Source: Candidatus Onthousia excrementipullorum
Lineage (GTDB): Bacteria; Bacillota_I; Bacilli_A; RF39; UBA660
Direction of reading: 5' to 3'
DNA: 34,768 bases
NCBI GenBank assembly: GCA_018712385.1
Contig: DVHC01000013.1
Coordinates: forward strand, 1 to 34,768
This document shows, piece after piece, positions 333-34,768 of the stretch; position 1 is the first letter of the stretch; each line of letters begins with the position of its first letter. The notes below the pieces were generated by a model. It was not told where the DNA came from and ran no database searches. It saw only the letters and a program-made list of their open reading frames with translations. The translations under genes were made by a program, and so were the position numbers.

Positions 333-732
333 CTCTATAATCATATAAGTATTCAGTATTTAACAAATCTAATAAAGCTTCTTCAACAAATTCAATAATT
401 AAATTATAGGGTGTTGATTTATATTTATAGTCGGTTTTATCTTTACAATAAAATTTCATTTTTAAGAGCTTATTGTCACTTAGTAAAAACATTTTTAAAT
501 TATCTTCAATAATAGTACATATTTCACTTATAATAAACTCTTCATAACTATCATAATTGTATGTATTTAGATAAAAATCTTTTATATCCCTAGCATATTC
601 TACAATATTAGAATCAGGTCCTTTATCATATAAAGGACAAGTATGATTATAAAGTTTATATTTATAACCTCCATTTTTCTTTAAATATTCAATAATTGCA
701 TCTATTTTAATAATAAATTCATCATTTTTCAT
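322..732 (-). CDS. Accessory ORF of the IS30-like element, unknown function
   Basis: A 136-residue protein whose ATG overlaps the transposase stop codon by four bases (ATGA), which implies translational coupling. It lies wholly inside the terminal inverted repeats, so it is a passenger or accessory gene of the element. The sequence is acidic, rich in Tyr, Asp and Lys and probably helical (several stretches such as DIKDFYLNTYNYDSYEEF); it has no signal peptide, no membrane segment and no motif that I recognise. Classical IS30 elements have a single ORF, so a second coupled ORF is unusual. It could assist or regulate transposition, but nothing in the sequence proves that. Confidence 0.65.
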   Translation of the reverse strand: MKNDEFIIKIDAIIEYLKKNGGYKYKLYNHTCPLYDKGPDSNIVEYARDIKDFYLNTYNYDSYEEFIISEICTIIEDNLKMFLLSDNKLLKMKFYCKDKTDYKYKSTPYNLIIEFVEEALLDLLNTEYLYDYRDIK

Positions 733-2042
733 AATGTTATATTTGCCTCCTCAATTTCTTTTTTATCAAGATATTTCTTGATATTGTTAATATTTTTTTC
801 ACCTAATAGTTTAGGTACAAGTACAACTTTATCATCATCTATTCTTTTTAAATTCAGTTTATCTAATACGTTTTTTGATATATAATTTTCTACTAAATCA
901 AAAGGACATTTACCATCTAAACTTTCCCTATATAAACTATTAATGTGAGAACATAATAAATCCAAATCTTTTTGAGTATAACATTTTAATGATACTCCTT
1001 TAGGAATAACCCTTCTAATAAGTTCATGGTTATTTTCTATATTTCCTTTTTCATAAGATGAATAAGGATGACAGTAAAATATATTAGCATTGGGTAATAT
1101 TTCTTGTAAGTCATCTAATCTAATAAATTCTTTGCCATTGTCTGTTAAAAGTATTTCAAATATCTTTTCAATTATTTCATTTCCTAATATTTGTTTTAGT
1201 AACTTTAGTTTGTTAGAAACCTCTTTGGCATTTTGAGAAGTTAATTTAAAGATAAGAATAAACTTAATATCTACAATTTCAATAGTAAAAAACACAGGTG
1301 CATCATTTTCTTTAATACCCTCAACAGTATCCATTTGTGTTTCTACTGCATTAGGATTTTCTTCTTTATAAGAATTATAATCTTCATAAGTATGACCATC
1401 TATATCTCTTTTATAAGATTTATCCCTAACTTCTTTTTGTTTAGTTTTTCTACATCTTGGTAAATCAGACTTTTTTAAGGCAAGTTGTCCTCTTTCTATT
1501 TGTTTATAAATAGTACTTATTTTAAAATTAAAGCCTCTTTTATTTATAACAATAAGCGCATGGTATATTGATTTACAATTTAATACTAATACTTTAAAAT
1601 CATTGTTTAAAATATCTAATTCTAAAGGTGTATATCGTAATTTACTTCTATCTTTTTTCCAAGAATTTACATATTCATTATTTGCTTCAACTGCATTATA
1701 ATAATATCTAACATGTCTACAATATTTTTTCTTTTGGCAACCATTGCAGACATGTGGAGAAGAGATTAAGTTTTCACACAATTTAATCTCTATATTTTTG
1801 CAAGTTTTATAACACTCATATGTTTTCATTGAACAATTTACATGTTTTAAACAAGGATGATCATAATTAAATGTAGAAGGAAAAGTTGCGATTCTGTGCT
1901 TCATTATTTCTTTTCCTATATTAGATCTGTCTCTTTGTAATTCATTAGATATTTCTGTTATAGTTTTACTTTCATTAAGTCTTTCTTCAATAAGTTTTCT
2001 TGTTTCTAAGGTGAAGTGAACATTTGTTACTTTCTTTTTCAT
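729..2042 (-). CDS. IS30-family transposase
   Basis: A 437-residue transposase that would cut and join the element ends. The N-terminus (about 8-50) has the IS30 helix-turn-helix pattern (ITEISNELQRDRSNIGKEI). A Cys/His-rich segment follows (63-109, including CNGCQKKKYC), as in the longer IS30 relatives of Firmicutes. The DDE catalytic core shows METQMDTVEG (Asp238), LLTDNGKEF (Asp301) and YEKGNIENNHELIRR (Glu336). Length and motifs look intact. The ATG at 2042 has AAAGGAA upstream. It is co-transcribed with the 136-residue ORF, which overlaps its stop. Confidence 0.92.
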   Translation of the reverse strand: MKKKVTNVHFTLETRKLIEERLNESKTITEISNELQRDRSNIGKEIMKHRIATFPSTFNYDHPCLKHVNCSMKTYECYKTCKNIEIKLCENLISSPHVCNGCQKKKYCRHVRYYYNAVEANNEYVNSWKKDRSKLRYTPLELDILNNDFKVLVLNCKSIYHALIVINKRGFNFKISTIYKQIERGQLALKKSDLPRCRKTKQKEVRDKSYKRDIDGHTYEDYNSYKEENPNAVETQMDTVEGIKENDAPVFFTIEIVDIKFILIFKLTSQNAKEVSNKLKLLKQILGNEIIEKIFEILLTDNGKEFIRLDDLQEILPNANIFYCHPYSSYEKGNIENNHELIRRVIPKGVSLKCYTQKDLDLLCSHINSLYRESLDGKCPFDLVENYISKNVLDKLNLKRIDDDKVVLVPKLLGEKNINNIKKYLDKKEIEEANITL

Positions 2043-17363: not shown

Positions 17364-17382
17364 GGGGCTGTCGAGAAATTAA
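17364..17382 (+). repeat. Left terminal inverted repeat of the IS1182 element
   Basis: GGGGCTGTCGAGAAATTAA matches the complement of 19116-19134 at all 19 positions. A fifth G lies just outside (17363). Confidence 0.85.
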
Positions 17383-19007
17383 TTAATTGATTTCTTGACA
17401 GTTTCTTTTTTTTGCTTTACATATGGAAAGGTCTCTTTGTGTAAATTATTTGGTGTATCCCAACAGTTGTCTTTAAATTTGCAATCATCAAAAGAATCAA
17501 GTAATCTTCTTATATTAACGCCTAAACACTCAAGCATCACTTCACAAGAAACATTTTTTAACCCACGTCTTCTTATTCTTTCATAATTCATATTGTTCTT
17601 AATTTGGCCAAATGTTCCTTCAACTTGAATACTTCTATTTATTCTTATCTCAATTCCTTTTGGACTCAATAGGTTATTTCTTGCCTGTTCTTTCAATAAC
17701 TCATAGTCAGGGTTTAATTCGACTTTTCTAAAGTTTTCATCTTTATTTTTTAAGTTTTTCTTACAAATATATGAATAGTTGCAGTTATTGCAACCTTCAA
17801 ATATATAGAGTTTTGTGTCTTTATTTCTTTGATGAGCAGAATTGGTTTTAAATGATATTTCTTTTCCAATATTAGTATTTAAACACATTATACCATCACC
17901 AAATGTATAAAAAAGTTGAGGCCTTTTACCACTAGATTCACCATTCCATTGTTGAAATTTCAAATAATTACCTATATTATGTTCCCTAAGATATTTATAA
18001 TTGGTATAAATACCATAACCAGAATCTCCAACTGCATTTTTTGGATAACTTCCATAATATTTATAATAATTATTGTATAAAGGTATAAGTGTATAATAAT
18101 CTGTTCTATCTTGATATACTCCGTACATTACAATTAATAGGTTAGACACTAATACCTGAACATTATATGCTGCATGGAAATCATGACTAAGTTTAGAATA
18201 ATAATCTTCTTTTAACATCATTGCAGTAGCATCTTTATCTGTTTTAAAATAAGAATTTCTATTATCTCCACAAATTTTTTCTTTTTCTTCATATTCAAGA
18301 AGCTTTATTAAATACTTATATGCTTGTTTATAATTTTTTATTTCTTTAGTAGTTCTAACTCCTTTACCACCTGGTAAATTATTAATATCTATATTATTTT
18401 TATATATATAATCTTTTAATATCAAATTAAATTTATCAGTCTTAATTAAATCTTTATTATTTGCTTCTTCAACATATCCCATTTCTCCCAATAAGCTTTT
18501 TATTTTTATATCTAGTTTTTGGTGGAATTTAGTAGGTTTCCAAACAAATTTATATTTATTTGCGTTGGCTTCAAATTTACTTCCATCAATATAAGCATCT
18601 TCTATAATTAAATTTAATTTTTTAATTATATGTTTAACAATAGTAGTAAATATTTCGTATTGATATGGAACTATATAATCATTAATAAAATTACCAAAAG
18701 TTGAATGGTCTGGTATATTACCATCCATAATATATAATACCCTAATATCAAAAAGGCATTTATCTTCTATATCTCTTAAAGATGCCTTAAACTTTGCAAA
18801 ACAATATACAATTGCAGCGAGTAGTTTATAAGGATCATAACCTTTTCGTCCTTTACACATACTTCTTTTTAACTTTACACTTTTTATTATTTTCCAAACA
18901 CCAGATTCTTCTAAAAAAATCAAAAATTTATCAATTTTCTCAAATTCCTCATTACATTTATCTGAGGGCACTAGAAAAATAGGCCTTTTTGTAGTAAAAT
19001 ACTCCAT
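17379..19007 (-). CDS. IS1182-family transposase
   Basis: A 542-residue DDE transposase. Near the start is the DUF772 domain (GRKGYDPYKLLAAIVYCFAK, SLRDIEDKC, PDHSTFGNF). The catalytic region shows EDAYIDGSKFEANANKYKFVW (first Asp), VGDSGYGIYTNYKYL (second), and IEIRINRSIQVEGTFGQIKNNM with the Glu. A Cys cluster (EGCNNCNYSYICKK) precedes the third motif, as in many IS1182 members. The ATG at 19007 has AAGGAG 9 nt upstream; an ATG at 19028 overlaps that SD and is rejected. Apparently intact, so the element may be active. Confidence 0.92.
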   Translation of the reverse strand: MEYFTTKRPIFLVPSDKCNEEFEKIDKFLIFLEESGVWKIIKSVKLKRSMCKGRKGYDPYKLLAAIVYCFAKFKASLRDIEDKCLFDIRVLYIMDGNIPDHSTFGNFINDYIVPYQYEIFTTIVKHIIKKLNLIIEDAYIDGSKFEANANKYKFVWKPTKFHQKLDIKIKSLLGEMGYVEEANNKDLIKTDKFNLILKDYIYKNNIDINNLPGGKGVRTTKEIKNYKQAYKYLIKLLEYEEKEKICGDNRNSYFKTDKDATAMMLKEDYYSKLSHDFHAAYNVQVLVSNLLIVMYGVYQDRTDYYTLIPLYNNYYKYYGSYPKNAVGDSGYGIYTNYKYLREHNIGNYLKFQQWNGESSGKRPQLFYTFGDGIMCLNTNIGKEISFKTNSAHQRNKDTKLYIFEGCNNCNYSYICKKNLKNKDENFRKVELNPDYELLKEQARNNLLSPKGIEIRINRSIQVEGTFGQIKNNMNYERIRRRGLKNVSCEVMLECLGVNIRRLLDSFDDCKFKDNCWDTPNNLHKETFPYVKQKKETVKKSIN

Positions 19008-19048
19008 GTGATACAACTCCTTAAGCAAGATTATTGTATCACAAAATG

Positions 19049-19115: not shown

Positions 19116-19134
19116 TTAATTTCTCGACAGCCCC
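19116..19134 (-). repeat. Right terminal inverted repeat of the IS1182 element, doubling as the end of truB
   Basis: Complement of 17364-17382. Read on the minus strand in the truB frame it gives G-L-S-R-N-stop. Confidence 0.85.
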
Positions 19135-20531
19135 TTTAACATTTTAAAGCATTTTAATTTATTATTAACATTCTGATAAATAGCCACTACTCTATTATTT
19201 CTCATAAATAGAACTTTATCTTTAATATTATAACTATTATCAATAACTGCCCCATTAACTATCCTTTTATAGTCCACACCATCTATTTCTTTTATTTCTA
19301 TATCTAGGGCATCACTAATAGTAATTAACTTACTATTTATAGTTACATCTTCTAAATCAACAGCATTATCTAATCTAAACTTACCTTGTCTCGTTCTTAT
19401 TAAACTACTCATAGTACATGGTATATCTAAAAACTCTCCCATATCTTTAATTAAACTTCTAATATAAGTTCCTTTAGATACAACACATCTAAACTTAAAA
19501 GAGTCTTCTTTATAATCTAAAAGTTCCAACTCTTTAATTATAACTTTTCTTTTAGGTAGTTCTACATCTTTATTACTTCTAGCATATTCATATAACTTCT
19601 TACCATTAACTTTAATAGCAGAGTACTTTGGTACTTCTTGAAGATATTCTTTAACAAACTCTTTAAATAAATTATCTAACATATCTTTAGATACTTTTTT
19701 ATCACTTGTCTTTACAATATTACCTTCTAAATCTAAAGTATCTGTTTCTACTCCTACTTTAACACTAGCGATATACTCTTTATCAGTACAGGTTAATAAT
19801 TCATTTATCTTTGTCGCCCTATTAATAGTAATTACAAGAAGCCCCTCAGCCATAGGATCAAGTGTCCCATTATGACCTATTTTCTTTGTATCAAAGACTT
19901 TCTCTAATTTATTAACAACATCTCTTGAAGTTATTCCCTTAGGTTTATTTACTAATAAAACGCCACTTTTATTATATAACTCATCATACTCTTCTAAAGT
20001 TAAATTATTATCTGTTATGATATTAGCAGTATTCTTCCCTACATATCTATAATGCCATGGCTCATAACTATAACCTGTTATATCATCTTTACCTTTAGGA
20101 TATCTAAGTATTAAACCATAATTAGGTAACAGTTCTATTATTTTCTCATATATTCTCTCTTCTTTAAATAACAAATCATTATCATAAATTAATTTATTAT
20201 TAATAACTAACCCTACATCTAAACAAAGCCCTGTATGATGTTCACTACTACCTAAAGGTGCAACATAACGTTCTACATAATCTTTACCATATTTATTAGT
20301 ATAATCATCTATTATCTTTTTTTGTTCTTCTAAAGTCCTTAATCCCCCTATTATATCTACAAAAATATTCTCTTTTTCTAAATCTTTCTTTAAATCAAAA
20401 TAAGCTTTTAAAGTCCTCTTTTCAAGTAAATATTCTTCATTTAAAGAATTAGTAATACTTTTATACTCTATATTAGAAAAATCTTCTTTATTATATGGCT
20501 TTTTCTTATTAACAACAATTTTATAATTCAT
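19116..20531 (-). CDS. truB: VanY-type D,D-carboxypeptidase fused to tRNA pseudouridine-55 synthase TruB
   Basis: One uninterrupted 471-residue frame carries two enzymes. Residues 1-180 are a peptidase M15B/VanY domain: SEHHTGLCLD (Zn ligands His98 and Asp105) and EPWHYRYVG (Glu157, His160), expected to remove the terminal D-Ala from peptidoglycan stem peptides. Residues about 187-471 are TruB: VNKPKGITSRDVV, catalytic GHNGTLDPMAEGLL (Asp225), KEYIASVKVGVETDT, and a PUA-like end. No signal peptide is visible, which is odd for a cell-wall enzyme. No ATG lies between the domains. The start at 20531 follows the rbfA stop by one base, with GAGGAA upstream. The last five residues and stop come from an IS1182 end. 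Confidence 0.9.
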   Translation of the reverse strand: MNYKIVVNKKKPYNKEDFSNIEYKSITNSLNEEYLLEKRTLKAYFDLKKDLEKENIFVDIIGGLRTLEEQKKIIDDYTNKYGKDYVERYVAPLGSSEHHTGLCLDVGLVINNKLIYDNDLLFKEERIYEKIIELLPNYGLILRYPKGKDDITGYSYEPWHYRYVGKNTANIITDNNLTLEEYDELYNKSGVLLVNKPKGITSRDVVNKLEKVFDTKKIGHNGTLDPMAEGLLVITINRATKINELLTCTDKEYIASVKVGVETDTLDLEGNIVKTSDKKVSKDMLDNLFKEFVKEYLQEVPKYSAIKVNGKKLYEYARSNKDVELPKRKVIIKELELLDYKEDSFKFRCVVSKGTYIRSLIKDMGEFLDIPCTMSSLIRTRQGKFRLDNAVDLEDVTINSKLITISDALDIEIKEIDGVDYKRIVNGAVIDNSYNIKDKVLFMRNNRVVAIYQNVNNKLKCFKMLKGLSRN

Positions 20532-20532
20532 C

Positions 20533-20871
20533 TTATTCCTCATTAATCTTATCTATAATCTTATCAATATGTTCTCCATAAGAAATAGACTCATCATATA
20601 AAAACTTTAAAAGAGGAATATGTCTTATCTCTATTCTTTTAGCAAGTTCTCCTCTTATAAAACTACTAGCATTATTTAAAGCTTTTAAAGTCTCCTCTTT
20701 TTTTTCTTGCTCTAAAACAGTAACATATATCTTACAATAACTTAAGTCATTAGAAGTATCACAATCAGTAACAGTTACAAATTTTATATTCTCATCCTTC
20801 ACTTCTAACATTAATATTTTACTAACTTCTTCCATAATCATATGATTAATTCTTTCTATTTTAATATTCAT
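20533..20871 (-). CDS. rbfA: Ribosome-binding factor A
   Basis: A 112-residue 30S-maturation factor of the KH-like fold that helps process 16S rRNA 5' ends. Family pattern: N-terminal RINHMIMEEVSKIL, FVTVTDCDTSNDLSYCKIYVTVL, and C-terminal RIEIRHIPLLKFLYDESISYGEHIDKII. The ATG at 20871 has AAAGGAC 8 nt upstream; a TTG at 20889 would overlap the SD and is rejected. It is one base from the vanY-truB start, so they are coupled. In most Firmicutes rbfA follows infB; here a plus-strand gene separates them. Confidence 0.93.
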   Translation of the reverse strand: MNIKIERINHMIMEEVSKILMLEVKDENIKFVTVTDCDTSNDLSYCKIYVTVLEQEKKEETLKALNNASSFIRGELAKRIEIRHIPLLKFLYDESISYGEHIDKIIDKINEE

Positions 20872-27876: not shown

Positions 27877-27903
27877 AAACGTCCTTAAGACGTTTTATTT
27901 TTT
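27876..27903. terminator. Terminator between the convergent CPBP and Rpn genes
   Basis: Stem AAAACGTC (27876-27883) / GACGTTTT (27889-27896), 5-nt loop, T-run on the plus strand. Confidence 0.8.
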
Positions 27904-28840
27904 TACATTAACATTATTATTTGTTTTTTAGAAAGACCTGTCGCTTTCATTATATCTTTAACAGATAAATTCATTTTAAGTAGATTTTTAGCAATAGACT
28001 TTTTCTCACTAGTAACACCTTGCTCAATTCCTTGTTCAATGCCTTCTTCTCTAGCAATATTACTATGATATTCTATCTTTAAAGCTTCCTCTTCTTCTCT
28101 TCTTTTCTCAGGATCATAAAGTCCTATATTATTAATATTATCTGTTAGTTCATATAATTTATCTGCTACTTCCATTAATTCATCATCTCCTTCTGCTATT
28201 TTTTTAATTTCTAAATAATCATCCAACATTAATATTACTAACTCTTTGTCTAATTTAGTTAACTCTTCTTCATTAAGATATTTATTAAAACTTTTCATCA
28301 TATCTATATGAATCTTTTCACTTGTTTTAGTTTCTATTATATTTTCATTATTCTTCATATAAAATTTAGAGATATTTTCTTTTCCTAGACATTCTTCAAA
28401 GTTATCAAAGATATCAAAGTTAATCTGGATTACCTTTATTTTCTTACTATACTCTTCACCTTTACTTAATAACTCACCTTTTATTTTACCAAAGTAAGCA
28501 TCATTTCTTTCAATTAATCCATCCCAGTATCCCCGATTACATTCTAAGTTAATAATATAACCTGGTAATTTAAAAATAAAATCAGATACTTTTTTCTTTC
28601 TAAAGCATTCGCTATTTTATATTCAACATTCTGTTCTTTAAAGTTCTTAATAATAAAATCTTTATCAAGTCCAGTTAATTTAGATATGATGTCTCCTAAA
28701 TATAAAAGACATCTACCCATAATAGCTTTAAATACATCATCAAGTGTTCCTTCATAGACAAAGTTATTAGATATCATATACTCTCTAATCTTTTCATTAG
28801 AGACACCATTAGGAATATGTTTTTTACGAAGTTTTTTCAT
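27903..28840 (-). pseudogene. Rpn/PD-(D/E)XK nuclease family gene, frameshifted at a slippery site
   Basis: Frame 1 starts at ATG 28840 (SD AAAGGAGGA) with MKKLRKKHIPNGVSNEKIR and runs through FKAIMGRCLLYLGDIISKLTGL to NALERKK, then terminates at 28544. The -1 frame continues the family sequence without a gap: VSDFIFKLPGYIINLECNRGYWDGLIERNDAYFGKIKG (shown here as the conserved LECN and DAYF parts), KVIQINFDIFDNFEE, then the C-terminal 151 residues ending in a helix-turn-helix-like tail (SVKDIMKATGLSKKQIIMLM). The switch lies on A_AAA_AAG (28595-28589). Either a frameshifted pseudogene or a product of programmed -1 frameshifting. Relatives are recombination-promoting nucleases / transposase-like proteins. 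Confidence 0.75.
28589..28595 (-). promoter_or_regulatory. A_AAA_AAG slippery heptamer in the Rpn gene
   Basis: In the zero frame the minus strand reads AGA AAA AAG TAT. A -1 slip gives GTA TCT GAT and restores the family frame. A stable downstream pseudoknot or stem is not obvious by eye. Confidence 0.5.
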
Positions 28841-28860
28841 ACTTCCTCCTTTCTGCAATT

Positions 28861-28889
28861 GGTATAACATACTCTTAAAAACATTGCAA
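28861..28889 (-). promoter_or_regulatory. Promoter of the Rpn gene
   Basis: Minus strand: TTGCAA (28889-28884), 17-bp spacer, TATACC (28866-28861), about 20 nt before the SD and ATG. Confidence 0.6.
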
Positions 28890-29205
28890 AAAGGCAATTT
28901 TGAAAATTCATCCCAAAAATGGTGGTAGATTTTCAATTTTTCCTAGGCGGATTTTCAAAATTCACCTAAAAAAATACCCTCAATTTTAAAAATTCATACT
29001 TTTTTTAAAAATTTTTCACAACCTCCTTATCCCCATCTTTTTTACAAGTCTCCCATCTACTTATAATGTATCATGATAGATAAATTGTGTCAAGAGGGGG
29101 GAGAGCAACTAATTTGTTGCTCACCTTTACCAAAATAAAATCTAGCATGTTTTTATTTACACACTAGATTATACACTGTCAATACATCTCCTAGATTACT
29201 GACAT
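28890..29205. other. Non-coding region between the Rpn gene and the variable surface protein
   Basis: No gene is supported. It holds three loosely similar A/T-rich motifs (TTTTGAAAATTCATCC near 28898, TTTTCAAAATTCACCT near 28952, TTTTAAAAATTCATAC near 28984). It also holds two hairpins downstream of the surface-protein gene: GAGCAAC/GTTGCTC (29103-29122) and AATCTAG/CTAGATT (29139-29170). No template-repeat copy of the variable regions and no reverse transcriptase is found here. Confidence 0.5.
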
Positions 29206-31038
29206 CTAACTTCCTAACTGTATTTCAAATGGTGAATTCAAGGTTCCATCACCATTTACAATTTGCACGTTAGATTTTAGATTCATGGATGGCCGAGCCC
29301 CGTTCTTGTTAGAAGGGCTACCGTTGCTCGCGCGGCCGTAGTCGTTGACGCGACGCACGCTAGACGAACTGTATGGTGTTAAAGTCCAATAAGATGTATT
29401 ATTACCATATCTATCAAATTGTCCGGACATTAATTCTCCAAATCTTAATAATCCTACTTTAGCATCTGTCGTTGTGGTATATCCTGACATATCAGTATCT
29501 GTATATTTTGCTAATTTATATGAAGTACCACTTCCTACAGTTCCAAGGTACCATGTGGTACTATCTTCTATCATATCAGTATATGGGCTTCCTACATAGT
29601 TTGTTAGATAGTCGCCATTTAAGAATGAACCTACAGTATTTGTACTTGAAAAAGTTGTATTACTTCCAAAATTAATTGTTTTAAACGTTCCTGAATCTTT
29701 TAGTGGTTCGGCACTGACTATTTTTGTCCCTGTACTATTTTCGTGACTTACTATTCTGTATAGATTATTTTCTTCATTCCCAAATTTTATATATTCTCCA
29801 CTATATCTACTTGACAACAATGTTCCAGAAAGTTCTGTATCGTTATCTCCATTTAGTCTATAAGGATTATCTACTGTACCATTGCCATCTACAATTTTAA
29901 CACTAGATTTTAGATTTATAGATGGCCGAGCCCCGTTCGTGTCAGAAGGGCTATAGTAGTCCGCGTTGCCGTTGTAGTTGACGTTACGCACGAAAGACGA
30001 ACTGTATGGTGTTAAAGTCCACCAAGAAAGTCCATTATTTAAATAACCATTTGTTTTTCCATTATTACTAGATTGATACTCATACATATTAAGTAGTCCT
30101 ACTGAAGCTGTTACAGTTGTGGTACCATTTGGTCTTGTTATACTTCCTAAACTTGTGGCATCTAATGTTGCATCCCATTTAGCATCTGTTACGATAAAGT
30201 TCTCATAATCTCTTAAATTACCTAAGAAACCATCTACTGTTGTATCATTTAACCAATCTTCCATATAACTACCTTCAAAATTAGTTTGATTACTAGGATT
30301 ATAAGTAGTTGTACTTATATTCCACTGGGTTACTAATTTTGTTGTCTTTGCCTCATTATTTACAGATACTGCTCTCCAAAGTTTTCCACTATACCATATA
30401 TAGTTATTAGGGTCTTCTCCTGTTATAAAGGTATCCGTTCCATCATCATAGGTGTCACCACTAGAAAGGTTATCAACTACTATATCTGATACAGGGCCTG
30501 TAGTTACAACTTTCTCAAACAGATGTCCATTATCTGGTAAACTTAAATCATTATAATCTAGTCCTACTTGTACCCCTAAAGTAATAGTTACACTACTACT
30601 AGATTTGTTAGATACTCTAATTGTATAAGTATTACTAGAACCACTAGCATCTGCTTTTTCTAAATTAACTCCTGTAGCAGCTGGTGGAGTATTTACTCCA
30701 TCACCTGTTTTATAACCTGCAGATACATCAGTAGGTAAGCTCCCTTCATAGTAAAAATTAAACCTTGCTGTTCTATTATTGGGGTTAGATAAAACAACTG
30801 TAAACTCTTTTGTCTCTCCTGCTCCTACTGTTAACTTATTACCTTCACTACCATCTACAGTAAGTTTATAAGTTAAATTACCTGTTACTATACTAATAGC
30901 ATTATTTCTTTCCTTACTTACTGTAAACATCGCATAAGAAAAGAAACCACCTACCAATAATAAACAAATAATACCTACTCCTAAAATATAAAACTTAGAT
31001 ATATCTGCTTTCATTAATTCTTTTATCTTATATTTCAT
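29206..31038 (-). CDS. Surface-anchored variable protein with two C-type-lectin-like/DUF6273-type domains (putative DGR target)
   Basis: A 610-residue protein. A cytoplasmic basic start and one TM (about 16-37) lead to a TasA/camelysin-like beta domain (about 40-190, NAISIVTGNLTYKLTVDG). Two related domains follow (about 205-400 and 405-610), each with a W/Y-R-V start, WLN or FLNGDYL, VGLL, and a closing WTLTPYSSS...NGARPS-NLKS. This layout resembles the FGE/C-type-lectin-like folds of retroelement-diversified proteins. Residues 340-372 and 551-583 are the variable blocks (see separate entries). It probably displays a ligand-binding face outside the cell; the ligand is unknown. SD AAGGTGAG upstream of ATG 31038. 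Confidence 0.8.
   Translation of the reverse strand: MKYKIKELMKADISKFYILGVGIICLLLVGGFFSYAMFTVSKERNNAISIVTGNLTYKLTVDGSEGNKLTVGAGETKEFTVVLSNPNNRTARFNFYYEGSLPTDVSAGYKTGDGVNTPPAATGVNLEKADASGSSNTYTIRVSNKSSSSVTITLGVQVGLDYNDLSLPDNGHLFEKVVTTGPVSDIVVDNLSSGDTYDDGTDTFITGEDPNNYIWYSGKLWRAVSVNNEAKTTKLVTQWNISTTTYNPSNQTNFEGSYMEDWLNDTTVDGFLGNLRDYENFIVTDAKWDATLDATSLGSITRPNGTTTVTASVGLLNMYEYQSSNNGKTNGYLNNGLSWWTLTPYSSSFVRNVNYNGNADYYSPSDTNGARPSINLKSSVKIVDGNGTVDNPYRLNGDNDTELSGTLLSSRYSGEYIKFGNEENNLYRIVSHENSTGTKIVSAEPLKDSGTFKTINFGSNTTFSSTNTVGSFLNGDYLTNYVGSPYTDMIEDSTTWYLGTVGSGTSYKLAKYTDTDMSGYTTTTDAKVGLLRFGELMSGQFDRYGNNTSYWTLTPYSSSSVRRVNDYGRASNGSPSNKNGARPSMNLKSNVQIVNGDGTLNSPFEIQLGS
29291..29388 (-). repeat. Variable region 2 (VR2) of the putative DGR target
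   Basis: Partner of VR1. Variable residues are 560, 563, 566, 567, 569, 571, 572, 573, 577 and 578. Codon pairs VR1/VR2 are TTC/AGC, AAC/CGC, TAC/GAC, AAC/TAC, AAC/CGC, GAC/AGC, TAC/AAC, TAT/GGT, GAC/AAC and ACG/AAG, each explicable from a template AAC, AAT or AAG. Confidence 0.85.
29924..30021 (-). repeat. Variable region 1 (VR1) of the putative DGR target
   Basis: A 98-bp block aligned without gaps to 29291-29388 (offset 633 bp). It differs from VR2 at 15 bases in 10 codons (residues 349, 352, 355, 356, 358, 360, 361, 362, 366, 367), all at codon positions 1 or 2. Its 3' end carries the conserved GC-rich GAACGGGGCTCGGCC, which fits an initiation-of-mutagenic-homing site. GC content is far above the surrounding DNA. 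Confidence 0.85.
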
Positions 31039-31098: not shown

Positions 31099-32142
31099 TT
31101 AATCAAAATAGTCAATTAACATAGCTTTCTTTACACGTTTTAAAGTCTCTTCTGCATGTCTATTAGCTTTCTTGCTACCTTCTTTTAACATATCATAAAC
31201 AAGATCAATATTATCTTCATAATACTTCCTTTTACTTCTTATAGGCTCTAATATATCTTCTATTACATCATATAAAAATCTCTTTACTTTAACATCACCT
31301 AAACCACCTTTTTCATAATGATCTTTTAATTCATCTAGATTTTTATATTCAGGTAAATATTTTTTAAAATGTTCGTCATTACATAATGCTTCTAAATAAA
31401 TAAACACCGCATTATTTTTAGTATCCCCAGGATCCTCTACTCTTATATGATTAGGATCAGTATACATACTCATTACTTTCTTTTTAACTGTTTCACTATC
31501 ATCTTTTAAATAGATACAATTACCTAAAGATTTACTCATCTTGGCTTTACCATCAGTACCAGGAAGTCTTCTACAAACCTCATTATCTGGTATTACTGCT
31601 TTAGGTTCTACTAAAGTATCCCCATATATATTATTAAAACTTCTAACTATCTCTCTAGCTTGCTCTAACATTGGTAATTGATCTTCTCCAACAGGAACAA
31701 TAGTAGCATCAAAAGCAGTTATATCTGCTGTTTGACTAATAGGATAATTTAAGAATCCTACTGGAATACTACTACCAAAATCTTTTTGTTTTACTTCACT
31801 TTTTACAGTGGGATTTCTCTCTAATCTAGATAGTGTTACTAAGTTCATATAATACATCGTAAGTTCAGGTAACGCGCTAATCATACTTTGAATAAAGATA
31901 GTTACTTTAGAAGGATCTAGCCCTACTGATAAATAATCTAATGCTACTTCTATTACACTATCTCTAACTTTCTTAGGATTATTAAAATTATCTGTTAAAG
32001 CTTGAGTATCTGCAATAAACACATACATTTCATCATAATCACCTTTATTTTGTAATTCTACTCTATTTTTTAGAGAACCTACATAATGACCTAAATGAAG
32101 GTTGCCTGTAGGTCTATCACCTGTTAAAATAATTTTCTTCAT
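31099..32142 (-). CDS. trpS: Tryptophanyl-tRNA synthetase
   Basis: A 347-residue class I aminoacyl-tRNA synthetase that charges tRNATrp. It shows the HIGH-type motif TGNLHLGHYVGS (HLGH at 16-19), VPVGEDQLPMLEQAREI, and GKAKMSKSLGN with KMSKS intact. Length is typical of the bacterial enzyme. The upstream gap is only about 65 bp and contains a terminator, so there is no room for a T-box leader. SD AAGAAGGAA before the ATG. Confidence 0.96.
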   Translation of the reverse strand: MKKIILTGDRPTGNLHLGHYVGSLKNRVELQNKGDYDEMYVFIADTQALTDNFNNPKKVRDSVIEVALDYLSVGLDPSKVTIFIQSMISALPELTMYYMNLVTLSRLERNPTVKSEVKQKDFGSSIPVGFLNYPISQTADITAFDATIVPVGEDQLPMLEQAREIVRSFNNIYGDTLVEPKAVIPDNEVCRRLPGTDGKAKMSKSLGNCIYLKDDSETVKKKVMSMYTDPNHIRVEDPGDTKNNAVFIYLEALCNDEHFKKYLPEYKNLDELKDHYEKGGLGDVKVKRFLYDVIEDILEPIRSKRKYYEDNIDLVYDMLKEGSKKANRHAEETLKRVKKAMLIDYFD

Positions 32143-32950: not shown

Positions 32951-34768
32951 CTAGTTTAATGCCCAAGCTGGAGGACAACTACCTTTTAATTCCCATGTAC
33001 CATTTCTATATTTATAATAGTTTAATAAATTAATAGAATAAACATCATTCATTAACTCCCAAAGGTACATAGATGTACTTCTATTTCCAGCATTATCTAA
33101 AACATAATATTCCCAGCCCCATACTGTATAGTATTGGGCCCCATTCCAGGTAATTTTACATGATTTATTTACATAGTTAGAATACAATCCTTTAACACCA
33201 GAACCCCCTGAATCACCAGCATCTTCAACTGGCCATGGCTCTCCACATGCTTCTGTTTTTCTATAAGCACAACTTCTTGAAGTAAAGATTTTTGATGTCT
33301 CATTAGTATTACACTGTCTTTCAGTAAAACAGGCTTTACCTTGACTTTGTAATGTTAAACTATAAGTAGAACCACCACAGAAACTTCCACCAACACAGTC
33401 TCCATAAAGACCTGTTTGTATTTTATGGCCATTGAAAGTAGCTGTTTTGGTCCATTTTATGATTGGTGTATAAGGCTTTGTTTTATCTATATAATATACT
33501 TTCCCAGCAAAACATTCTCTACTATTACCAACAGCATCATATACTCTTAATTTGATTGTTCTTTTTCCTTCTCCACTAATTGATACTTTCTTAGTAGAAA
33601 CAGGCTTTTCACCCCAATCTGTCCAAGAGCCTCCTTCATTTCCTGTATACCAACGCCATTTTGTAGTATCACTTGTAAAACCAAAGGTATATGTTATATC
33701 TTTATTTGTCCATTTTCTTTCTGCTATTGTTGCACTAAAACTTGGACATGATGGAGCCGTTTTATCGATTCTTACTGTCTGATTTGCAGGACAACTTGCA
33801 CTATTTCCGGCTTTATCTTTTACGGTTCCAGGAGATGCCGTTGTTGTATTTATTTCATAATTAAAAGTCTTACTAACATTACCTACACAACCACTTCCCC
33901 CTTTATCACTACATGTTCCTTTTATGGTTATTGTTCCGTTTGTCCATGATGTACTTCCTCCACTACTTGTACATGTTGGCTTTGTCTTATCGATTCTTAC
34001 TGTCTGATTTGCTGGACAACTTACACTATTTCCAGCATTATCTTTTACTGTTCCTGGAGATGCCGTTGTTGTATTTGTATTACTATCAAATGTCTTAGTG
34101 GTATTACCTGCACAACCACTTCCCCCTTTATCACTACATGTACCTGTTATAGTTAAATTTGTATTTCTCCAACTACTACTTCCGCCACTACTTGTACATG
34201 TTGGCTTTGTCTTATCTATTTTTACTGTCTGATTTGCAGGACATGTTGTACTGTTACCTGCTTTATCTTTTACGGTTCCTGGAGATGCTGTTGTTGTATT
34301 TGTATTACTATCAAATGTCTTAGTAGTATTACCAGCACAACCACTTCCTCCTTTATCACTACATGTTCCTTTTATTGTTAAATTTGTATTTCTCCAACTA
34401 CTACTTCCTCCACTACTTTCACAAGTTGGCTTTGTCTTATCTATATAATACTCTCCTGTTGTCGCTATACAACTATTTCCATCAGCATCATACACTACTA
34501 ATTTTAATTGATGTTTTCCTTCTGTATTTAAAGTTAACTTTCTATTCGCTGCACCTATATAATTATCTACTGCTACATATTCTCCTCCATCTACTCTTCT
34601 ACTTAATTCCCATTTATATGTATTATCCGGTAATTTCATTGTCACTGTTATATCTTTATTTGTCCATGTCCTTACATTTATATTACTATCAAACTCTACT
34701 TTAGCACAATCTATCCCTTCATAGATTGAATATTTACCACTTCTTTTACTACTTCTATTTCCACTTGT
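32951..34768 (-). CDS. Cys-rich Ig-like repeat surface protein, partial at the right edge
   Basis: The frame is open to the window edge (about 605 residues visible; a GTG at 34645 is internal, since upstream codons continue with NVRTWTNKDITVTMKLPDN). Repeats have the form WTNKDI or WRNTNLTI, GTCSDKGGSGC, TVKDKAGNS, CPANQTVRIDKTKPTC, typical of bacterial Ig-like/adhesin repeats ending in IDKT(K/A)P. Three are near-identical 75-residue copies with four Cys each; two further diverged units and a unique C-terminal domain (about 435-605) follow. There is no LPxTG at the C-terminus (ends PPAWALN). Probably an adhesin or cell-surface stalk. Confidence 0.8.
   Translation of the reverse strand, partial: TSGNRSSKRSGKYSIYEGIDCAKVEFDSNINVRTWTNKDITVTMKLPDNTYKWELSRRVDGGEYVAVDNYIGAANRKLTLNTEGKHQLKLVVYDADGNSCIATTGEYYIDKTKPTCESSGGSSSWRNTNLTIKGTCSDKGGSGCAGNTTKTFDSNTNTTTASPGTVKDKAGNSTTCPANQTVKIDKTKPTCTSSGGSSSWRNTNLTITGTCSDKGGSGCAGNTTKTFDSNTNTTTASPGTVKDNAGNSVSCPANQTVRIDKTKPTCTSSGGSTSWTNGTITIKGTCSDKGGSGCVGNVSKTFNYEINTTTASPGTVKDKAGNSASCPANQTVRIDKTAPSCPSFSATIAERKWTNKDITYTFGFTSDTTKWRWYTGNEGGSWTDWGEKPVSTKKVSISGEGKRTIKLRVYDAVGNSRECFAGKVYYIDKTKPYTPIIKWTKTATFNGHKIQTGLYGDCVGGSFCGGSTYSLTLQSQGKACFTERQCNTNETSKIFTSRSCAYRKTEACGEPWPVEDAGDSGGSGVKGLYSNYVNKSCKITWNGAQYYTVWGWEYYVLDNAGNRSTSMYLWELMNDVYSINLLNYYKYRNGTWELKGSCPPAWALN
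33751..34425 (-). repeat. Three tandem 225-bp repeats in the Ig-like protein
   Basis: Period boundaries marked by TTGGCTTTGTCTTAT fall at 34426, 34201 and 33976, exactly 225 bp apart. The units at 34201-34425 and 33976-34200 are nearly identical; the one at 33751-33975 has diverged. Confidence 0.9.

Follow-up and report, generated by a model that had tools for sequence, protein, structure and literature searches.

A two-variable-region target gene that has very probably outlived its own diversity-generating retroelement cassette in Candidatus Onthousia excrementipullorum

One gene in the window, the 34,768-nucleotide stretch of DNA analysed here, is very probably a target of a diversity-generating retroelement (DGR) with two variable regions (VRs), which used a cassette of its own, then lost it and now stands as an orphan. 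The window corresponds to contig C55 in a MAG of Candidatus Onthousia excrementipullorum (1.50 Mb in 75 contigs, 90.7% complete). A DGR had been proposed in an earlier note on this DNA, and that reading is supported by VR differences that track template adenines and by DGR machinery in the same genome. The gene and its blocks comprise:

29206..31038, minus strand: putative DGR target gene, 610 aa (ORF list, Pfam DUF6273 match and a low-confidence model)
29924..30021, minus strand: VR1 block, adenine-variable sites ~29939 to ~29994
29291..29388, minus strand: VR2 block, adenine-variable sites ~29306 to ~29361
29924..29938, minus strand: invariant GC-rich 3′ end of VR1, GAACGGGGCTCGGCC, IMH-like by sequence, with a presumed function
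29291..29305, minus strand: invariant GC-rich 3′ end of VR2, GAACGGGGCTCGGCC, likewise IMH-like, with a presumed function

VR1 and VR2 align without gaps over 98 bp and differ at 15 sites in 10 codons, exactly as first described. All 15 differences fall at codon position 1 or 2 and none at position 3; 12 have A in one copy and the remaining three are T/G. GC content reaches 57% and 65% in the block cores, whereas it is 34% in the gene as a whole and 27% in the window. The final 15 bases, GAACGGGGCTCGGCC, are the same in both blocks and may serve as an IMH, and ordinary changes (ATCTATAAATCTA / ATCCATGAATCTA, GGC/GGT) follow just downstream; each of these earlier observations was reproduced. 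No perfect hairpin (stem of at least 6 bp, loop of 3–12) was found within ~100 bases downstream of either window VR; BPP-1 requires a hairpin near its VR (PMC3240598).

When a homologous template repeat on contig C1 of the same genome serves as the reference, the VR1/VR2 differences occupy 14 of its 24 adenines but only 1 of its 51 other sites, a pattern beyond chance (Fisher p = 4.4e-8). The proposal that template codons of the AAC, AAT or AAG type lie behind all ten variable codons was thus borne out at 14 of the 15 sites against the C1 template, and not at one. The lone exception, block position 83, is C in VR1, A in VR2 and C in both known templates. Because the two blocks have a common non-adenine backbone and differ at template-adenine sites, a single adenine-rich template appears to have been copied into both.

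The target protein begins with a hydrophobic helix (residues ~13–36), which suggests membrane anchoring; of the earlier description as a surface protein, this one helix is what was found, and from it we infer the location. Residues ~45–170 tentatively form a beta-sandwich-like stalk in a low-confidence model; in a fold comparison, unrelated beta-sandwich proteins matched the stalk at Z ~5, a result left uninterpreted. Models of the whole protein and of a single domain reached pLDDT 47 and 48, too poor to use. C-terminal to the stalk are two homologous DUF6273-type domains with one VR in each. The DUF6273 (PF19789) match spans residues 246–378 (E 4.6e-10; 40 bits against a curated Pfam cut-off of 23.5), with VR1 at its C-terminal end. 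Domains 1 and 2 are ~37% identical, which marks them as an internal duplication. Published DUF6273 models (PMC10743442) are similar to the C-type lectin fold, which the target domains, by this family match, likely adopt; a search of PDB sequences with the domain profile returned zero matches. Close homologues of the target come from MAGs of uncultured Bacilli or Tenericutes and from Candidatus Onthousia faecigallinarum.

The gene lies between trpS (31099-32142) on one side and broken Rpn-like ORFs (27903-28936) on the other. Beyond trpS, a large, open-ended minus-strand ORF (32951-34768) encodes cysteine- and glycine-rich tandem repeats (SDKGGSGCAGNTTKTFDSNTNTTTASPGTVKD...); it had no match in Pfam and is probably another surface protein. 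An ORF at 19116-20543 (minus strand) fuses a VanY-type D-alanyl-D-alanine carboxypeptidase domain (residues 39–170) to a TruB pseudouridine synthase (215–361), both above Pfam cut-offs. A DDE transposase gene (17379-19028, minus strand) is also present, as is an ORF resembling an IS30-type transposase (729-2042, minus strand), whose helix-turn-helix start falls below cut-off.

The earlier note had staked its reading on a DGR reverse transcriptase (RT) or template repeat elsewhere in the genome, and RTs, Avd-like genes and template repeats are all present. An RVT_1 profile search of the genome detected five RTs, of which those on contigs C1, C58 and C75 stand behind small Avd-like and MutS-like genes; the genome holds three DGR cassettes at these positions. 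The motifs IGNxTSQ and YMDD are invariant among the aligned DGR RTs. When the C1 RT was compared with solved structures, the best matches were a series of RTs headed by 8ub7, which we take to be the BPP-1 DGR RT. The Avd-like genes are matched by PHROGs for all three cassettes and by NCBIfam for two, as well as by Pfam, and MutS_I is above cut-off for C75. DGR RTs have been defined by (I/V/L)GxxxSQ in motif 4 (PMC3521204), together with YxDD. DGR accessory proteins comprise Avd or, alternatively, HRDC or MutS-like proteins; the MutS-like one, MSL, corresponds to PF01624 in PMC10053308.

On C1, a two-VR target is followed by a 13-bp hairpin, the template repeat, MutS-like, Avd and RT genes and an Rpn-like gene, and the RT cassette looks intact. 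The C58 template differs from its VR at 21 of 36 adenines and at none of 62 other bases, and the C75 template at 15 of 32 adenines and 7 of 56 other bases. A further locus, on C70, has kept its template and MutS-like gene, with Avd and RT remaining as fragments only.

Similarly, changes in same-locus template/VR pairs across the genus affect 236 of 504 adenines but only 80 of 1007 non-adenine bases (Fisher p 9e-66, indicative only, as the pairs are non-independent and a few include flank). The cleanest single pairs, such as one with 13/28 adenines and 0/61 other bases changed, put the adenine bias beyond doubt. The loose template motif scan gave many chance matches, and only those with template-like sequence were counted. 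With one genome per species, a DGR-type RT was detected at E below 1e-32 in 30 of the 35 genomes of the genus.

Beside the window target, homology to the intact cassettes ends ~26 bases past the stop codon, at ~29180, and an Rpn-like unit follows:

29180..29205, minus strand: last cassette homology, the 5′ arm of the target–template hairpin, GATGTCAGTAATCTAGGAGATGTATT, from comparison of the C1 and C70 loci
27903..29150, minus strand: Rpn-like nuclease/transposase unit (TIGR01784, E 2.1e-9, under the curated cut-off)
29068-29093, minus strand: promoter-like TTGACA...CATGATAC of the Rpn-like unit
28544-28936 and 27903-28358, minus strand: two broken ORFs of the Rpn-like unit

The name Rpn rests on TIGR01784 matches below the curated cut-off throughout. 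Missing beyond 29180 are the 3′ arm of the hairpin, the template repeat and the MutS-like, Avd and RT genes. A search by flank motif found no template repeat in the window, nor is there an RT within it, which excludes a complete cassette in cis. Related loci have the order target with two VRs, hairpin, template repeat, MutS-like, Avd, RT and Rpn-like gene, and at L123 and L124 a homologous promoter-like stretch starts directly after the RT stop. In other relatives, shortened templates are joined to a homologous Rpn-like unit (L173, L175 and L193), or the unit is inserted or joined ahead of the template (L178). The C7 paralogue in the same genome has the same target/Rpn-like junction as the window. 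Since relatives show intermediate states and C7 shares the junction, cassette loss is the simplest reading; either a deletion or a replacement brought about by the Rpn-like unit would have removed the cassette. An assembly join at this point of a 75-contig MAG is a residual concern, against which the C7 junction speaks.

Between the target stop and the template repeat, the hairpin has been kept (L022:4338-4487 and L025:2760-2909). The stems at C1 and C70 are 13 and 12 bp long and lie ~90 nt after VR2; both arms have changed in concert (C1, GTCAGTAATCTAG; C70, GTCAGGAAGAAG), and the ATGTATT loop that they enclose is conserved. Judged from these paired changes, the target–template hairpin is a constrained structure. 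In a close relative (L097:1030-1100, genome G009), a CPBP protease gene directly follows trpS, an empty site for the target and Rpn-like block of the window.

The template that wrote the window blocks was sought in the genome and the genus, where two relatives of it stand out:

C1:21810-21886, minus strand: C1 template repeat, between the two-VR paralogue and the MutS-like, Avd and RT genes
G006:C12:14441-14506: template repeat (L141) of another species of the genus, with a 12-base internal deletion

The best template in the assembly is that of C1, which has 91% identity to the template deduced for the window and mismatches the window VRs at 6–7 of 51 non-adenine sites. Six of these mismatches occur in both VRs and are spread along the block. 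These common non-adenine differences rule out the C1 template as the direct writer and make it a sister. Beyond the window VRs, the deduced template matched, in its own genome, the C1 sister, two copies on C70, one on C3 and a truncated copy on C23; a template with the window backbone had no match in the whole assembly (MAG ~91% complete). The expectation of a template repeat matching the blocks therefore held for a homologous sister, and the writing template itself is not in the assembly.

In its non-adenine backbone, the G006 template agrees with each window VR at 44 of 45 sites. Relative to it, VR1 is changed at 6 of 20 adenine sites and VR2 at 7 of 20, each with 1 of 45 other sites changed. 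Direct parentage of the window blocks is thus deduced from a sister template in another species. The G006 template adjoins VRs of another backbone, and because a window-type template stands beside non-matching VRs, templates and targets appear to have been re-paired within the genus. A phage origin was also considered and rejected: no viral contig carried the backbone pattern, and RT relatives in viral contigs were at most 38% identical.

The genome contains ~13 paralogous target loci. VRs of the window, C1, C70, C3 (first VR) and C23 fit some template at no less than ~83% of non-adenine sites; in C39, C52, C74, C7, C6 and C70b, drift has brought this fit down to ~60% or below. By this fit, the window VRs are part of a recently rewritten group. 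The longest identical run between the window target and any paralogue in the genome is 68 bases.

Exchange between targets may occur elsewhere in the genus. In genome G030, targets at two different loci, L102:7573-7686 and L120:2917-3030, are identical over an 800-bp tract that takes in VR1 but diverge on either side of it; L102 adjoins trpS without a cassette, and L120 lies beside a template and RT. The tract may be the trace of gene conversion between the two paralogous DGR targets, or it may be an artefact of assembly. At L107:2641-2751 (genome G014, beside trpS), a window-type N-terminus is joined to a different VR type (WTMTPAAF..., as in the C58 target), and whole variable domains may have been exchanged there.

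It is proposed that an error-prone DGR RT copies one adenine-rich template and that the mutated cDNA replaces each VR up to its GC-rich 3′ end. The window locus would formerly have had, and used, its own template and RT, and a deletion or replacement beside the Rpn-like unit would then have removed them. For the orphan gene, the only remaining routes to new VRs would be rewriting in trans, with the C1 machinery or an unassembled template, and recombination with paralogous targets. In the protein, the N-terminal helix would act as anchor for the display of two variable C-type-lectin-like binding faces.

Other histories of the blocks must be weighed against this one. It is possible, if on the unlikely side, that the gene is an active remote target, both of whose VRs the C1 RT rewrites from the C1 or an unassembled template. 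The intact appearance of the C1 RT cassette and the 91% identity of its template would suit such a role, as would published trans activity on remote targets (PMC10907252, PMC4891356) and the persistence of GC-rich, template-repeat-like window blocks while several paralogues decayed. However, the six non-adenine mismatches common to both VRs mean that the present sequences did not come from the C1 template, and the assembly has no other that matches. We think it improbable that orphan targets owe their new VR sequences chiefly to gene conversion from cassette-linked paralogues and less to direct retrohoming. The L102/L120 tract with its VR1 would be an example, but MAG assembly or binning could yield such a tract, the window target shares 68 identical bases at most with any paralogue in its genome, and gene conversion alone does not account for a VR1/VR2 difference confined to adenine sites.

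An ordinary internal domain duplication with positive selection at surface residues, and no retroelement, is scarcely credible. The two DUF6273 domains do represent an internal duplication, and non-synonymous differences taken alone are compatible with selection; what they do not explain is that the differences track template adenines (p 4e-8), that the blocks form GC-rich islands with counterparts in separate non-coding template repeats, and that the same genome has DGR machinery with adenine-specific pairs. The template repeats already refute this alternative. The preferred reading remains an orphaned two-VR target. More broadly, and with considerable reserve, DGR templates and targets of the genus might form a shuffled repertoire, in which two-headed targets are scattered, cassettes come and go, templates are swapped between loci and species, and orphans are refreshed in trans or by gene conversion; the G006 template beside non-matching VRs and the G030 tract hint at this.

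Many of these elements have precedents: several VRs per ORF (PMC6642488, PMC10907252), remote or left-over targets (PMC4891356), DUF6273 targets and lost cassettes are already published. A DGR reconstituted in an E. coli reporter system has also been reported (PMC12875486). The Treponema denticola TvpA DGR (PMC4891356) likewise has many dispersed paralogous targets with one or few RT/template cores, and targets that remain after core loss. TvpA targets are of the FGE-sulfatase type with one VR each, whereas the targets described here, from Bacilli, are of the DUF6273 type and have two VRs in each chain. The DGRs of Thiohalocapsa PB-PSB1 (PMC10907252) also include multi-VR targets, incomplete loci and transposase-shaped decay, and their trans activity was similarly judged by non-adenine match. 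In contrast to the present case, those targets are putative conflict-system sensors and their activity was proved by population reads. In gut phage tentaclins (PMC10743442) and Faecalibacterium prophages (PMC11792537), the VR is again at the C-terminal end of DUF6273, but these are phage proteins, whereas the window target is a chromosomal gene beside trpS; among RTs from viral contigs, the nearest reach only 38% identity. One survey found several VRs in one ORF in 11.3% of multi-VR DGRs (PMC6642488); here, two VRs per chain are the rule for the whole target family across the genus. No paper on DGRs in this lineage was found in open-licence PMC text.

To a little-known lineage of gut Bacilli, these findings add a family of chromosomal DGR targets, probably at the cell surface, in which each chain has two diversified domains. 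Such targets escape surveys confined to the surroundings of RTs, a point made for remote targets by the authors of PMC8144416. How orphan two-VR targets may keep their VRs fresh is the more interesting side of the window locus, which illustrates targets outliving their retroelement.
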